DNA of 64,000 nucleotides. It comes from Candidatus Latescibacterota bacterium. Its GTDB lineage: Bacteria > Latescibacterota > UBA2968. Shown piece after piece: positions 10,201 through 47,311 of the stretch. Position 1 is the stretch's first letter. Each line of letters starts with the position of its first letter. The translations under genes were made by a program, and so were the position numbers. Location of the stretch: assembly GCA_022823725.1 (NCBI GenBank), contig JAJEHL010000005.1:1-64000 (forward strand), written 5' to 3'. The notes beneath the pieces are model-generated. The model was not told where the DNA came from. It did not search any database and was given only the letters and a program-made list of their open reading frames with translations.

Positions 10201-11097
10201 ATGTCGAAACAGAACTATCGCGTTGCGCCGCCGGGGTTTACGTGCGAGCAGTGGAACGAATTTCAGGAGGATGGCATGCTCGTTGTGGAAGATGCGTTGA
10301 CAGACGAGGAATGCGATCGCTATATCGAAATGATGGATGCTGCGGCTGCCCGCAGTGAAAAATACGATCCCGCGAAGTTTTTTGGTCCAAACAATATCGT
10401 GGAGCGGTATCCCGAATTTGCCGAGTTGATTGATCACCCCCGGCACATCGGCTTTATGCACGATGTGTATGGCGAATTGTTAAAACTCCATATTTCGCAA
10501 TTTTTCTTGCGTCCCCGCGATACCAGTCGCAACAAGTGGCATCCCGATGGCGCGCGCGCTTTGCCCTATGGCGTTTTTTCACCAGTGTTGCCCATACAAA
10601 TCAAAGTGGCGTATTGGCTGACTGATCTTCCCGAGCCGGACATGGGAAATTTTGTCTATATGCCCGGTAGCCATAAGGGGCAGTATTTTGATTTTTACGA
10701 TACCCATGACAAAGTTCCTGGCGAAAAGGTAATTTGCCCGAAGCGCGGCACAATGACGTTTATGCACTGCAATACATGGCATCGCGTAGCGCCGAATAAT
10801 ACGGATGTTGTGAGAAAGAACATCTTTTTGGCTTATTGTCCGTCGTGGATTTGCGAAGCGGACCGGCACCAATGTGATCCCGATTGGCTCGCTACACTGA
10901 ACCGCGAACAGCGCATTATTATGCGAAGTTACAATAGCGGATATGCGAGGACCAAGCCCGCGGCCAGTGAATTTCCGCTCTTTCTGGATAGGGAAACGGG
11001 TTCCGATCGAGACTATGGTGTTTGGCCCGATCACGTTGCGTTACATCGGCGCAAACGCATGACCACAGTTGAAAAATTTGAGTTGGCATCTACTTGA
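10201..11097 (+). CDS. Phytanoyl-CoA dioxygenase (PhyH) family Fe(II)/2-oxoglutarate oxygenase
   Basis: This 298-residue protein is a member of the PhyH family, which hydroxylates small molecules using Fe(II), O2 and 2-oxoglutarate. The iron-binding facial triad is readable: H114 and D116 in NKWHPDGAR, and H194 in CNTWHRVAPN. R205 is the likely 2-oxoglutarate-binding arginine. The start has AGGAG 8 bases upstream. The stop overlaps the start region of a 2-hydroxyacid dehydrogenase, so the two enzymes are probably made together, and a hydroxylated product may be oxidised by the partner. The family includes many uncharacterised catabolic enzymes, so the substrate is open. Confidence 0.88.
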   Translation: MSKQNYRVAPPGFTCEQWNEFQEDGMLVVEDALTDEECDRYIEMMDAAAARSEKYDPAKFFGPNNIVERYPEFAELIDHPRHIGFMHDVYGELLKLHISQFFLRPRDTSRNKWHPDGARALPYGVFSPVLPIQIKVAYWLTDLPEPDMGNFVYMPGSHKGQYFDFYDTHDKVPGEKVICPKRGTMTFMHCNTWHRVAPNNTDVVRKNIFLAYCPSWICEADRHQCDPDWLATLNREQRIIMRSYNSGYARTKPAASEFPLFLDRETGSDRDYGVWPDHVALHRRKRMTTVEKFELAST

Positions 11098-11111
11098 TGC
11101 AGGAGGCTGTT

Positions 11112-12056
11112 GTGAAGGTATTAATTAACGATCGCCTGGACGATCACCACCTGACGCAGATTCAATCGTCGGCTGAGGATATCGATCTGATTATCCCCGA
11201 GTCAAGTGATGATGCGCTGGATATTATGCCCGAAATTGACATCATTTTGGGGGGCATGAGCCGCGATATGTTCAAACGCGCCGAACGCCTGAAGTGGGTG
11301 CAGACCTGGGGCGCGGGTGTCGATGGAATGATGTATGCCGAGTTTGTCCATAGTGAGGTGATTCTGACGAGTGCAAAGGGCACTGTGGGCGTTCATTTGT
11401 CGGAACACGCGATGGCTCTTTTACTCGGATTGACCCGGGGAATTGCACGCGCGATCAGAACGGCTGATTGGGATGAGCGCATGCCGATCCGCCACGCATC
11501 GTGGGAATTGATCGATAAAACAATGGGGATTGTGGGGTTGGGGGGCACGGGAGGCGATGTGGCAATCCGGGCGCATGCGTTTGGCATGAAAATTATCGCT
11601 GTTGATCCAGAGGATGTCGAGGTGCCAGACTGTGTAGAGGCCTGCTGGAAGATGGATCGCTTTTACGATCTTTTATCCGCGTCTGACATCGTGGTGGTCT
11701 GCTGTCCGTTGACAGAGGAAACACGCGGACTTTTCGACCGCCTGGCATTTGAGAAGATGCAGAATCACGCGCTTTTGGTCAATGTCACGCGGGGTAAAAT
11801 TATGGATGAAGCATCTCTGGTTGAGGCATTGGAAACCGGACAGATTGCCGGGGCGGGGTTGGATGTGACGCCGCAAGAGCCATTGCCCGATAGTCATCCG
11901 TTGTGGCATATGCCCAATGTTATTATCACACCGCATACTGCGGGAGGATCTCCCAATAGGCAGGACCGCATTGTGAAACTGTTTTGCGAAAACTTGCGGC
12001 GTTTTCTGAATGGGGAAGATATGCTGAGTGTGATCGATAAAAATAAAGGATATTGA
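11112..12056 (+). CDS. D-isomer-specific 2-hydroxyacid dehydrogenase
   Basis: This 314-residue NAD-dependent enzyme interconverts 2-hydroxy and 2-oxo acids. The nucleotide-binding motif is visible in MGIVGLGGTGGDVAIRAHAF, the catalytic arginine in NVTRGK, and the catalytic histidine in ITPHTAGG. The start is uncertain: GTG 11112 has AGGAGG 5 bases upstream, while ATG 11097 overlaps the PhyH stop (TGATG) and would add five residues. Either way the gene is coupled to the PhyH gene. It lacks a downstream terminator; instead a new promoter lies 13 bases past the stop. Confidence 0.87.
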   Translation: MKVLINDRLDDHHLTQIQSSAEDIDLIIPESSDDALDIMPEIDIILGGMSRDMFKRAERLKWVQTWGAGVDGMMYAEFVHSEVILTSAKGTVGVHLSEHAMALLLGLTRGIARAIRTADWDERMPIRHASWELIDKTMGIVGLGGTGGDVAIRAHAFGMKIIAVDPEDVEVPDCVEACWKMDRFYDLLSASDIVVVCCPLTEETRGLFDRLAFEKMQNHALLVNVTRGKIMDEASLVEALETGQIAGAGLDVTPQEPLPDSHPLWHMPNVIITPHTAGGSPNRQDRIVKLFCENLRRFLNGEDMLSVIDKNKGY

Positions 12057-12068
12057 ATCCGTTTTCTC

Positions 12069-12097
12069 TTGACACAATGTTACAAATATATTGATAT
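12069..12097 (+). promoter_or_regulatory. Sigma-70-type promoter ahead of the structured RNA
   Basis: TTGACA (12069-12074) is followed after exactly 17 bases by TGATAT (12092-12097), predicting a start near 12104. A perfect TATAAT at 12133-12138, without a good -35 box, could give a second start near 12145. The 12057-12361 gap contains this promoter, the structured RNA and a repeat, but no gene. Confidence 0.55.
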
Positions 12098-12144
12098 TTA
12101 CAACGAAACATATACTGGAATGTATTACTCAGTATAATTCTATG

Positions 12145-12244
12145 ATTTAATGGTCTCGGGCAAGGGTGACCCGAGGTCATGTGCCCTTCTCTCAAGTAGG
12201 AATCCCTGTGTTGGGGTCACCGAATCGGGAGAAGGGCGTTTTTT
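12145..12244 (+). ncRNA. Candidate structured RNA (small RNA or cis-regulatory leader) ending in a terminator
   Basis: About 100 bases have strong, competing pairing potential. CTCGGG (12155-12160) pairs with CCCGAG (12170-12175). GGTGACCC (12165-12172) is perfectly complementary to GGGTCACC (12214-12221). GCCCTTCTC (12183-12191) pairs with GAGAAGGGC (12229-12237), which is followed by six Ts and looks like the terminator. The second and third helices cross, so they form either a pseudoknot or alternative folds, as in a switch. I compared it by eye with common riboswitch and SRP-RNA motifs and found no match. It may be a free small RNA or a leader controlling the transporter gene that starts 118 bases later. 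Confidence 0.55.
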
Positions 12245-12290
12245 GTGTGGCAGCACCTCCTTAAGACGTTATATTAGGCGTTAAAAGCAG

Positions 12291-12340
12291 GTAAGAGGTA
12301 AGACGTAAGGGGTGAGAGGGATGCCTTTAACGTCTCACGT
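12291..12340. repeat. GTAAGACGTAAG-type short repeat
   Basis: GTAAGAG, GTAAGACG and TAAGGGG copies are followed by an inverted CGTCTCACGT. It lies between the structured RNA and the transporter start, and resembles other short intergenic repeat families in this window. Confidence 0.5.
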
Positions 12341-12361
12341 TTTTCGTATAGAGGTTTTTGA

Positions 12362-14308
12362 GTGGCTTTAGCAAGAGAAGCTGTTGTTCCTGAATCTGCC
12401 AGATCCACCGTGACATTCCGCGCACTCGTTTTGGGTACTTTTCTCACGGTGATGGCGACAATTGCCGGGTCTTACGCGAGATTTATTCTCCACACTACGA
12501 GATTGGATCAAAACCATCTTTCAGTCGCTGCTGTTTTTCCCATTGTTGTGATCGCGCTCGTGCTTTTGCGCCCGCTCAAGCTAAGTCGGGGCGAGCTTAT
12601 TGTCATGTTTTCTATGGCATTGATTGGCGCGACTATGCCCACGTATTTTGTCGGGAAATTGATCGCCAATTTTACGGTGCCGTATTATCTGGCAACCCCT
12701 GAGAATCAGTGGGCGACCTATTATGAGCCCTATTTGCCAGAGTGGTCTATTCTGCCCGCCAGCGAATCTCTGCGATGGTTTTTTGAAGGACTACCGCGCG
12801 GGGTTTCCGTGCCGTGGGATGCGTGGATTGTGCCCGTGTTCTGGTGGATGACTGTAATTGCGGCTTTTTATGGTTGCTGTCTTTTTTTAATGGTCATTCT
12901 GCGAAAACAGTGGATAGAGTACGAGCGCATTGACTACCCGCTGATGGAAATGCCTTTGGCTGTGATGGAAGAGGACAAAAGGCAGGGCTTTTTTCCAATT
13001 CCCATTATGAATAACCCGTTGTTCTGGGCGGGTTTTAGTCTTACGTTGTGTATTATCCTGTGGAATGTTATTTCTTATTTTAGTCCGACTTTTCCGACGA
13101 TTCCATGGCGCTTTGCGAGTATTCAGTTTGGGCGCGAATTTCCCCCCATTCCCGTGCGTCTATATCTGATGGTTGTGGGCTTTGGGTATTTTATAAATCT
13201 GGATATTTCGCTGAGTCTGTGGGTGTTCAATGTGCTGACCAATCTGGAAAATGGATTTTTTAACCGCTTTGGCCTAAAAGCCGGTGCAGATGAGGAGTAT
13301 TCCACAGGCCCCCTGGCGATGGGCGCGCAATCTATGGGGGCGTTCATTGTGGTGGTACTCGTGGGTTTCTGGATGGCACGCGGGCACTTGCGCGGGGTTT
13401 TTCGCAAGGCATTTTATCGCGATGACTCGGTTGACGATTCCGATGAGATTGTTTCGTATCGCACGGCGGTTTTTGGTCTTATGGCCTGTTCTGCCTACCT
13501 GATTGTGTGGCATTTGGCAACGGGCATGGCGTTTAAGTATATCCCGATTTTTCTTTTTGGTGCTCTGGTCATGTATCTGGGGATTACGCGGGTTATTGCA
13601 GAGACCGGTCTGATTTCTATTCGCGCCCCCCTGATGCCGCAACCTTTTGCCATGTTTGTGATGGGGTCAGATGTGCTTTCACAACAGACGCAGGTTTCTA
13701 TCGCGCTTTCGTATTCATGGTGCAGCGATACAAAAACCACAATTATGCCCGCGCTTGCCCATTCCGTAAAGCTTTACGATACTATTCGGGTCAATCAGCG
13801 AAGGTTGATCATTCCCATTGTTCTGGCAATGGGTGCCGGGGTGTTGGCTACATTTGTCTATACAATTTATATGGGTTATTTGAATGGCGCTGCAAATTAC
13901 GGCGGTATTTTTCACGGGGGTCTCGCGCGGTTTCCCTGGGATAATCTGGTCAAGAAGTCGAAAGATCCATTTTCTGTGCAGTGGTTGCCTATTATGTATA
14001 TGAGTATTGGCGCTGTGGTGACGCTGCTTTTTATGATTTTGCGCTATCGAGTCGCGTGGTGGCCGCTTCATCCGATTGGGTTTGCAGCCGGGCCGGTTTA
14101 TCCGGTTAATAATGTCATTTTTGCAATTTTTCTCGCTTGGGCGATCAAGTCTATTGTTTTGCGGATTGGGGGTATTCGCGCTTATCGCACTGGTCGGCCG
14201 TTTTTTATAGGGCTTATTATGGGGCATTTTGTGGGGGCTGGCATTTCGTTTGTCGTCGATATGATCTGGTTTCCGGGACAGGGGCATAGTATTCCGTTTT
14301 CGGATTAA
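12362..14308 (+). CDS. Polytopic membrane protein of the DUF6785/DUF6784 (OPT-like) type
   Basis: This 648-residue integral membrane protein has about 14 hydrophobic segments spread over its length, starting with RALVLGTFLTVMATIAGSY. It resembles the large DUF6785-type proteins distantly related to oligopeptide transporters; this assignment is from memory of the family pattern and is not certain. The start is GTG 12362, with AGAGG about 8 bases upstream. It opens a long same-strand array of sugar-acid enzymes and is the obvious candidate for the uptake step. A structured RNA lies just upstream. Confidence 0.7.
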   Translation: MALAREAVVPESARSTVTFRALVLGTFLTVMATIAGSYARFILHTTRLDQNHLSVAAVFPIVVIALVLLRPLKLSRGELIVMFSMALIGATMPTYFVGKLIANFTVPYYLATPENQWATYYEPYLPEWSILPASESLRWFFEGLPRGVSVPWDAWIVPVFWWMTVIAAFYGCCLFLMVILRKQWIEYERIDYPLMEMPLAVMEEDKRQGFFPIPIMNNPLFWAGFSLTLCIILWNVISYFSPTFPTIPWRFASIQFGREFPPIPVRLYLMVVGFGYFINLDISLSLWVFNVLTNLENGFFNRFGLKAGADEEYSTGPLAMGAQSMGAFIVVVLVGFWMARGHLRGVFRKAFYRDDSVDDSDEIVSYRTAVFGLMACSAYLIVWHLATGMAFKYIPIFLFGALVMYLGITRVIAETGLISIRAPLMPQPFAMFVMGSDVLSQQTQVSIALSYSWCSDTKTTIMPALAHSVKLYDTIRVNQRRLIIPIVLAMGAGVLATFVYTIYMGYLNGAANYGGIFHGGLARFPWDNLVKKSKDPFSVQWLPIMYMSIGAVVTLLFMILRYRVAWWPLHPIGFAAGPVYPVNNVIFAIFLAWAIKSIVLRIGGIRAYRTGRPFFIGLIMGHFVGAGISFVVDMIWFPGQGHSIPFSD

Positions 14309-45898: not shown

Positions 45899-46984
45899 TT
45901 ATTTCGCTTCTATATACCCCTCTCGGGTCAAGAGTTCGGCCATCAGGACAGCCCCCCCTGCTGCACCGCGTACAGTATTGTGACTGAGGGCGATGAATTT
46001 GTAATCGAAGAGATTGTCTTGGCGCAAGCGGCCGAGCGCGATGCCCATGCCATTTTCCGCATCGCGGTCTAAGCGCGTCTGCGGACGGTCATCGCCTTTG
46101 ATGTACGCGAGAAATGTTTTGGGCGAGGAGGGCAGTCCTGTAGCTCGGCGGTCGCCTTCAAAGGCTTGCCAGCGCAAGAGGATATCTTCAACTGTGGGTT
46201 TTTTGTCAAAGGATACAGATACGGCTGCCATGTGACCATCTGTGACGGGAACTCGAACGCATTGGGCTGAAATGATTGGACTGCGCCTGGGCACAATTTC
46301 ATCTTTGACAATTTTGCCCCAGATTTTGTGGGGTTCGTTTTCGCTTTTGTCTTCTTCGCCACCGATATAAGGGATGACGTTATCTGTCATTTCTGGCCAT
46401 GTTTCAAAGGTTTTTCCCGCACCGGAAATGGCCTGATATGTGCATATAGAGGCACTCGAAGGCCCAAACTCTGACAATGCGTGAAAAGCCGGTACATAAG
46501 GCTGAATAGAGCAATTGGGTTTTACGGCAATAAAACCGCGTTGGGCACCCAGACGTTTGCGCTGCTCCGGAATGATTTCTGCGTGCTCTGGATTGATTTC
46601 TGGCATAAGAATGGGCACGTCGGGGGTCCAGCGGTGCGCCGAATTATTGGAGATGACCGGGGTTTCGGCTTTTGCATAAGCTTCTTCAAGTTTGAAAATC
46701 TCTTCTTTTTCCATGTCGAGCGCGCAACAGACGAAATCGACTTGTGATGCGATCGCGTCAATCTCGCGCACATCTTGCACGACGAGATCGGACACCGTTG
46801 CGGGAATGGGTAGATCGCATTGCGCCCATCGGCCTTTTACGGCTTCTCGATAGGTTTTGCCAGCAGAGCGCGGACTGGCAGCAACGACGGTGATTTCGTA
46901 CCAGGGATGATCGGCGAGCAATGTGACAAAGCGCTGCCCGACCATGCCGGTTGCGCCGAGAACTCCTACTTTGAGTCTGGACAT
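45899..46984 (-). CDS. asd: Aspartate-semialdehyde dehydrogenase (archaeal/fungal type)
   Basis: This 361-residue enzyme makes aspartate semialdehyde, the branch point to lysine, threonine, methionine and diaminopimelate. The NADP loop is GATGMVGQRF (10-19), the catalytic cysteine is C158 in VKPNCSIQ, and a histidine near GHMAAVSVSF is likely the base. The NCSIQPYVPA segment is of the fungal/archaeal subclass rather than the E. coli type. ATG 46984 has AAAGGA 8 bases upstream. A lysine riboswitch with terminator precedes it, so lysine should repress it. Confidence 0.93.
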   Translation of the reverse strand: MSRLKVGVLGATGMVGQRFVTLLADHPWYEITVVAASPRSAGKTYREAVKGRWAQCDLPIPATVSDLVVQDVREIDAIASQVDFVCCALDMEKEEIFKLEEAYAKAETPVISNNSAHRWTPDVPILMPEINPEHAEIIPEQRKRLGAQRGFIAVKPNCSIQPYVPAFHALSEFGPSSASICTYQAISGAGKTFETWPEMTDNVIPYIGGEEDKSENEPHKIWGKIVKDEIVPRRSPIISAQCVRVPVTDGHMAAVSVSFDKKPTVEDILLRWQAFEGDRRATGLPSSPKTFLAYIKGDDRPQTRLDRDAENGMGIALGRLRQDNLFDYKFIALSHNTVRGAAGGAVLMAELLTREGYIEAK

Positions 46985-47013
46985 CGATTTTTCCTTTCTG
47001 CGGATTTGAAAAT

Positions 47014-47247
47014 AAAAAAACAGCCGGTTGCCAGAGTAGAAGCATGCCGACTGCATATAGCAGAGACTGCCCACAAGAGAGTGCTCCACGGGATCGTTTC
47101 CCGTGACAGTTCAGCAGATGTTATCTGCTGCCCCAGCTAAATGCCTTGCGGAGGGCATTTGGCTTCGGCATCTCAACCCTTTCATCTGGCCTGTAGATCC
47201 GCTTTTTTATGTCAGATTACTGATGATGAGATGCGCCTCTACTCTTG
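47014..47247 (-). promoter_or_regulatory. Lysine riboswitch (L box) controlling asd
   Basis: Read on the minus strand from 47247, the leader contains the conserved L-box segments in order: GAGGCGCATC, CAGTAATCTG, GATGAAAGGGTTGAGATGCC, GAAGCC, GGCATTTAGCTGGGGC, GAACTGTCACGG and CCGTGGAG. P1 can form between CAAGAG (47247-47242) and CTCTTG (47079-47074). The expression platform is a 7-bp hairpin (47053-47047 with 47027-47021) followed by seven Ts (47020-47014). TCTACTCT in its loop is also complementary to AGAGTAGA at the 5' end (47245-47238), offering an alternative fold. A minus-strand TTGACA at 47285-47280 is a plausible -35 box, but the -10 is weak. Confidence 0.95.
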
Positions 47248-47311
47248 GAGGGAAGAAACTTCACATATTCTTTATTTTTTGTCAACCTGAAAATGGAATA
47301 TGCCGCTGATA

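Follow-up and report, generated by a model that had tools for sequence, protein, structure and literature searches.

The intergenic region at 12057-12361 of the window, the 64,000-nt stretch of DNA analysed here, raises the question of what kind of RNA might lie between a gene for a D-isomer-specific 2-hydroxyacid dehydrogenase (11094-12056, plus strand; Pfam PF02826, PF00389) and one for a DUF6785/DUF6784 membrane protein (12362-14308, plus strand; Pfam PF20581, PF20580; GTG start). The original prediction described a structured RNA of no known class, bounded by a promoter and a terminator, in which a helix crossing the terminator stem would form either a pseudoknot or mutually exclusive folds, and which could act as a ligand sensor or as a small regulatory RNA.

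Anatomy and conservation of the RNA

Both transcription signals named in the original prediction are present on the plus strand, which carries all elements of the locus. A σ70-type promoter (12069-12097) consists of TTGACA (12069-12074) and TGATAT (12092-12097) separated by 17 bases, and an 11-pair stem (12183-12193 with 12227-12237) is followed by the tract TTTTTT (12239-12244), which is invariant across ten aligned genus genomes and ends 117 bases before the start of the DUF6785 gene in the window. From the positions of promoter and terminator, with a start estimated at about 5 nt past the −10 box, the predicted transcript spans 12102-12244. The 5′ part (12098-12149) is poorly conserved, contains an AT-rich hairpin (12111-12118/12129-12136) in the best fold, and is largely absent from the copy in genome G008. 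The best fold of 12140-12246 has two hairpins in succession, P1 and then P2, with an energy of −45.4 kcal/mol as compared to −32.3 ± 3.9 kcal/mol for 200 shuffled sequences (z −3.4), two of which fold as well. P1 (12150-12180) pairs 12150-12160 with 12170-12180 around the loop CAAGGGUGA (12161-12169), and most relatives retain GGGUGA in this loop. P2 (12183-12237) is the terminator. Its outer stem, P2a, includes one G-U among its 11 pairs; above it lie a loop-E-like core (12195-12224), in which AGUA (12195-12198) is opposite GAA (12222-12224) with GG/CC closing, and an upper stem (12199-12200/12220-12221 and 12202-12206/12213-12217) capped by the hexaloop UGUGUU (12207-12212).

The RNA was found in 11 of 11 genomes of the window's genus. 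Among ten of them, invariant positions number 26 of 29 in the promoter, 30 of 31 in P1, 50 of 55 in P2 (80 of 86 for the two hairpins together) and 7 of 7 at the end with the U-tract. The corresponding values are 19 of 52 for the 5′ spacer, 45 of 117 for the stretch past the terminator, and 63 of 86 and 41 of 59 for the flanking coding ends, so that conservation is higher in the promoter and hairpins than in either neighbouring gene. The extent originally given for the element was accordingly reduced: 12069-12244 was retained, but 12245-12361 is poorly conserved. About 52 bases between the terminator and the DUF6785 start, at approximately 12299-12350, are missing from aligned relatives and hold an inverted repeat, TAACGTCT/AGACGTTA, with upstream sequence. 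In G008 (L034 1652-1990), a nucleotidyltransferase-like ORF, read on the near-identical L013, sits immediately before the promoter and RNA, between them and the 2-hydroxyacid dehydrogenase gene.

A covariance model built from six distinct copies (R1) identified diverged copies of the RNA in three further Latescibacterota genera, with scores of 104.9 and 57.8 bits in G013 (L035 and L038), 54.2 bits in G012 (L036) and 60.6 bits in G020 (L044). Weak R1 matches at L039, L040, L041 and L043 (17-20 bits) were interpreted as simple terminators or chance matches. Genomes of family f4, from the same class, gave no match to R1 or to a model of the P2 core (R2) under stricter filters, with which weak matches can be lost. 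In an alignment of nine distinct sequences (A6), 98.0% of P1/P2 cells pair, a percentage that leans towards the model because the alignment was fitted to it, and two-sided changes are present in 12 of the 29 P1/P2 pairs (5 of 11 pairs in P1 and 7 pairs in P2); neither value was reached in any of 500 shuffles. When partners were slid by 1-3 columns, pairing fell to 43-56%. Six copies aligned independently with MAFFT led to the same conclusion, with 99.4% pairing and five two-sided changes. By these sequence comparisons the RNA is real and evolutionarily conserved, with two hairpins and its own predicted promoter and terminator.

No Rfam 15 family scored above its gathering threshold at the locus in a covariance-model search. 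The only match in permissive mode, RAGATH-23 (RF03099) over 12093-12186, excluded P2 and reached 20.7 bits against a gathering threshold of 92.6 (E 0.17), and was dismissed as chance. The relatives, searched up to E 10, likewise gave no family above gathering threshold, and a literature search found no described small RNAs for Latescibacterota. As judged from Rfam 15 and this literature search, the RNA family is not previously described, and the claim of a structured RNA outside the known classes holds, with its structure supported by covariation. Elsewhere in the window, an ordinary lysine riboswitch (RF00168, 99.5 bits; 47071-47249, minus strand) directly precedes an ORF (45899-47089, minus strand) that reads like aspartate-semialdehyde dehydrogenase.

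The crossing helix

The feature to which the original prediction drew attention, an 8-bp helix between 12165-12172 and 12214-12221, is present in the letters as a perfect complement crossing the terminator stem. Within the genus it might be a genuine pseudoknot or switch, formed on top of the two conserved hairpins: all eight pairs are kept in the scored genus sequences other than those of the GACTC/GGATCACC type, and an 8-bp helix outside the sequence's own best fold arose in only 17 of 400 dinucleotide shuffles (about 4%). However, four genus genomes carry GACTC/GGATCACC arms that interrupt the helix (scored on one of the four) and leave P1 (G-C to G-U) and P2b (U-G to U-A) paired, and four copies from other genera form only 5, 5, 4 and 5 of the 8 pairs. 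The arms share bases with P1 and P2b, two helices that covary, but the crossing helix itself has no pair with a two-sided change and scores no higher than its own shuffles. An exclusive fold that contains it is 16.1 kcal/mol less favourable, and when the 5′ part is folded by itself, P1 persists and the crossing helix does not form. The crossing helix, being unconserved, without covariation and energetically costly, was therefore rejected as a functional element; that it acts as a pseudoknot or switch is highly improbable, and it most likely arose by chance, to which the resemblance between the GGU/ACC letters of the two hairpins may have contributed. The proposal of mutually exclusive folds was abandoned along with it, since no competing antiterminator fold was found (a gap of 22 kcal/mol).

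The P2 core at other loci

In the P2 stem, AGUAGG opposite CCGAA has the letters typical of a loop-E (sarcin-ricin-like) motif, with AGUA opposite GAA between predicted Watson-Crick pairs. Such motifs occur in loop E of 5S rRNA, the sarcin-ricin loop of 23S rRNA, stem I of T-boxes, and the lysine and glutamine riboswitches. The P2 motif resembles these in having AGUA opposite GAA and G-C closing pairs, but differs in lying inside a terminator hairpin, in a first A that varies outside the genus, and in the lack of any Rfam match at the locus. All 11 diverse copies compared keep GUAGG and GAA unchanged and vary at the first A of AGUA, and the wider core follows the consensus GUAGGAACC-loop-GGUGACCGAA; the outer stem changes in sequence and keeps its pairing.

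Further copies within the phylum were found with R2; one match, L104, was set aside as unsupported by its own fold. An exact-pattern scan of an 84,980-species collection, which detects copies near the consensus only, returned 32 stretches, and those with a stem around the core and a close U-tract all came from this phylum. Pattern matches outside Latescibacterota had no stem plus U-tract and were considered chance or unrelated. The repeats GAGGGGAAGTGGTTCCGTAGGAACCGAAAGGGTGACCGAA, found almost unchanged in a Riflebacteria MAG and RUG334 (L053, L060, L070), have no matching terminator and appear to be a repeat element of unrelated kind. G060 (L045 576-647), from a distant family of the phylum, has a P2 hairpin with a AAGUAGGAACC/GGUGACCGAA core and U-tract, and no P1, shortly before a σ70 factor gene.

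Copies found with R2 terminate a second type of RNA, the 5′ part of which is GAGUGGUACCGAUUGGUC. Five copies in five genera (L112, L111, L115, L109 and L113) adjoin aroA; four lie between dnaE and aroA, and all five end in the same P2 hairpin. On the RNA strand of these stretches, taken from about 45 nt before to 80 nt past the GTGGTACCG motif, each copy has the σ54 promoter pattern TGGCAY-N5-TTGY 36-37 nt before GTGGTACCG, as compared to a background rate for the pattern of 0.004 per 120 nt, and ACTCTGAGTGGTAC is invariant among the five. With this pattern at a fixed distance, the aroA-linked relatives therefore look like separate transcription units. The aroA-linked RNA in G021 (L103) lies on the opposite strand to aroA, pointing away from it and converging on an FtsX-like gene. 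A weak R2 match before aroA in G014 (L098), with a diverged hairpin, no 5′ domain and no σ54 pattern, was rejected.

Other second-type copies follow a gene for a MPIFVSRFSPERS-like protein; those in G011, G012 and G013 face a convergent gene as the next plausible one. In some second-type RNAs an ordinary terminator replaces the P2 core. The RNAs behind the MPIFVSRFSPERS-like gene at L110, L108, L119, L114, L116 and L117 (alignment A7) have a 5′ hairpin around UUCGGAGUGGC, and a possible covarying pseudoknot was seen among them by eye (CAGGU..AAGCCG..ACCUG..CGGCUU in G013); copies are in tandem in G021. L099 and L107 cover two of the MPIFVSRFSPERS-linked places and had no Rfam match. Kinship with T-boxes, prompted by GUGGUACCG in second-type relatives, was discarded because the Rfam T-box model gave no match up to E 10, and kinship with the glutamine riboswitch, suggested by resemblance of short motifs, because no Rfam match was found.

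Small RNA, leader or 3′ UTR

The locus probably encodes a stand-alone, trans-acting sRNA of about 140 nt rather than a riboswitch or attenuator. By kind the RNA is a bacterial intergenic sRNA; its family has no entry in Rfam 15. Sequence and conservation predict a promoter and an intrinsic terminator of its own, and its secondary structure is conserved, as expected for a bacterial sRNA. Trans-acting sRNAs with an intrinsic terminator, a kind that includes Hfq-dependent sRNAs, are alike in possessing their own promoter, in shortness, and in hairpins and a U-tract terminator; the RNA of the window likewise has no noted conserved reading frame, and some copies have no downstream gene. Unlike them, it matches no known family and holds in its terminator stem a loop-E-like core shared across loci. 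Counting against an sRNA are the DUF6785 gene invariably located 3′ of the RNA, on its strand, throughout the window's genus, the leader-like position of several relatives before aroA or a gene for a small zinc-ribbon-like protein, and the absence of the P2 core from some second-type RNAs.

Alternatively, the RNA could be a cis-acting leader in which the P2 terminator controls the DUF6785 gene as an attenuator or riboswitch, with P1 and P2 as the sensor. The same DUF6785/DUF6784 gene lies 3′ of the RNA on the same strand in 11 of 11 genus genomes, including G008 with its changed upstream gene, and among relatives three have the zinc-ribbon-like protein gene next on their strand and four lie ahead of aroA. 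A sequence of this kind would share with attenuating riboswitches, such as the lysine riboswitch of the window, a structured RNA with a terminator upstream of a gene, but it differs from them in having neither a competing antiterminator nor a constant downstream gene across genera. A search for a mutually exclusive antiterminator fold found none, the crossing helix being 16 kcal/mol worse and unconserved; the gap without P2a was 22-29 kcal/mol across four sequences, and no crossing helix formed in the 5′ part on its own. The downstream same-strand gene is constant inside the genus and absent or different outside it. L035, the closest copy outside the genus, sits between convergent genes with no same-strand gene downstream, which also leaves the suggested sugar-acid riboswitch or attenuator unsupported, and L103 (pointing away from aroA), L106, L107, L116 and L117 likewise have no such gene. 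Within the genus, the stretch from terminator to gene is poorly conserved. An sRNA is favoured over a leader because the G008 promoter stays with the RNA though the upstream gene differs, because the terminator has no competing fold, and because L035 has no same-strand gene behind it and relatives lie in unrelated places. Since the DUF6785 neighbour is constant in the genus, a genus-specific leader for that gene retains some probability, although a leader is on the whole unlikely. Of the two functions originally put forward, the small regulatory RNA was thus preferred to the ligand sensor.

The position of the RNA directly behind the dehydrogenase gene, on the same strand, and the strength of the P2 terminator would also suit a mere 3′ UTR of the upstream operon, with no function beyond ending transcription. 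Arguing against this are the conserved promoter between the dehydrogenase gene and the RNA, the conservation of P1, which termination does not need, and of the loop-E core and hexaloop, and the persistence of promoter and RNA in G008 behind a different gene. We consider a 3′ UTR of this kind quite improbable.

As an sRNA, the RNA would be transcribed from its own σ70-type promoter and end at P2, giving the transcript of about 140 nt (12102-12244). P1 would present the conserved G-rich loop (GGGUGA), and P2 would serve both as intrinsic terminator and as a recognition module around the loop-E-like internal loop. Because the P2 sequence is conserved on different RNAs, we infer that P2 may dock a protein partner; the sRNA would then act in trans, with targets reached by the P1 loop or by the partner of P2. 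A terminator-borne core common to what appear to be different RNAs is unusual. More tentatively, and with considerable doubt, the shared P2 hairpin might be a common docking site for otherwise different sRNAs, some of them under σ54 control, in a phylum-specific regulon with its own RNA-binding partner.

The interest of the locus does not lie in the eye-catching crossing helix. An RNA family supported by covariation and outside Rfam is added to an uncultured phylum, together with a recurring, terminator-borne candidate recognition module, associated in one branch with σ54-type promoters, that can be searched for in metatranscriptomes.
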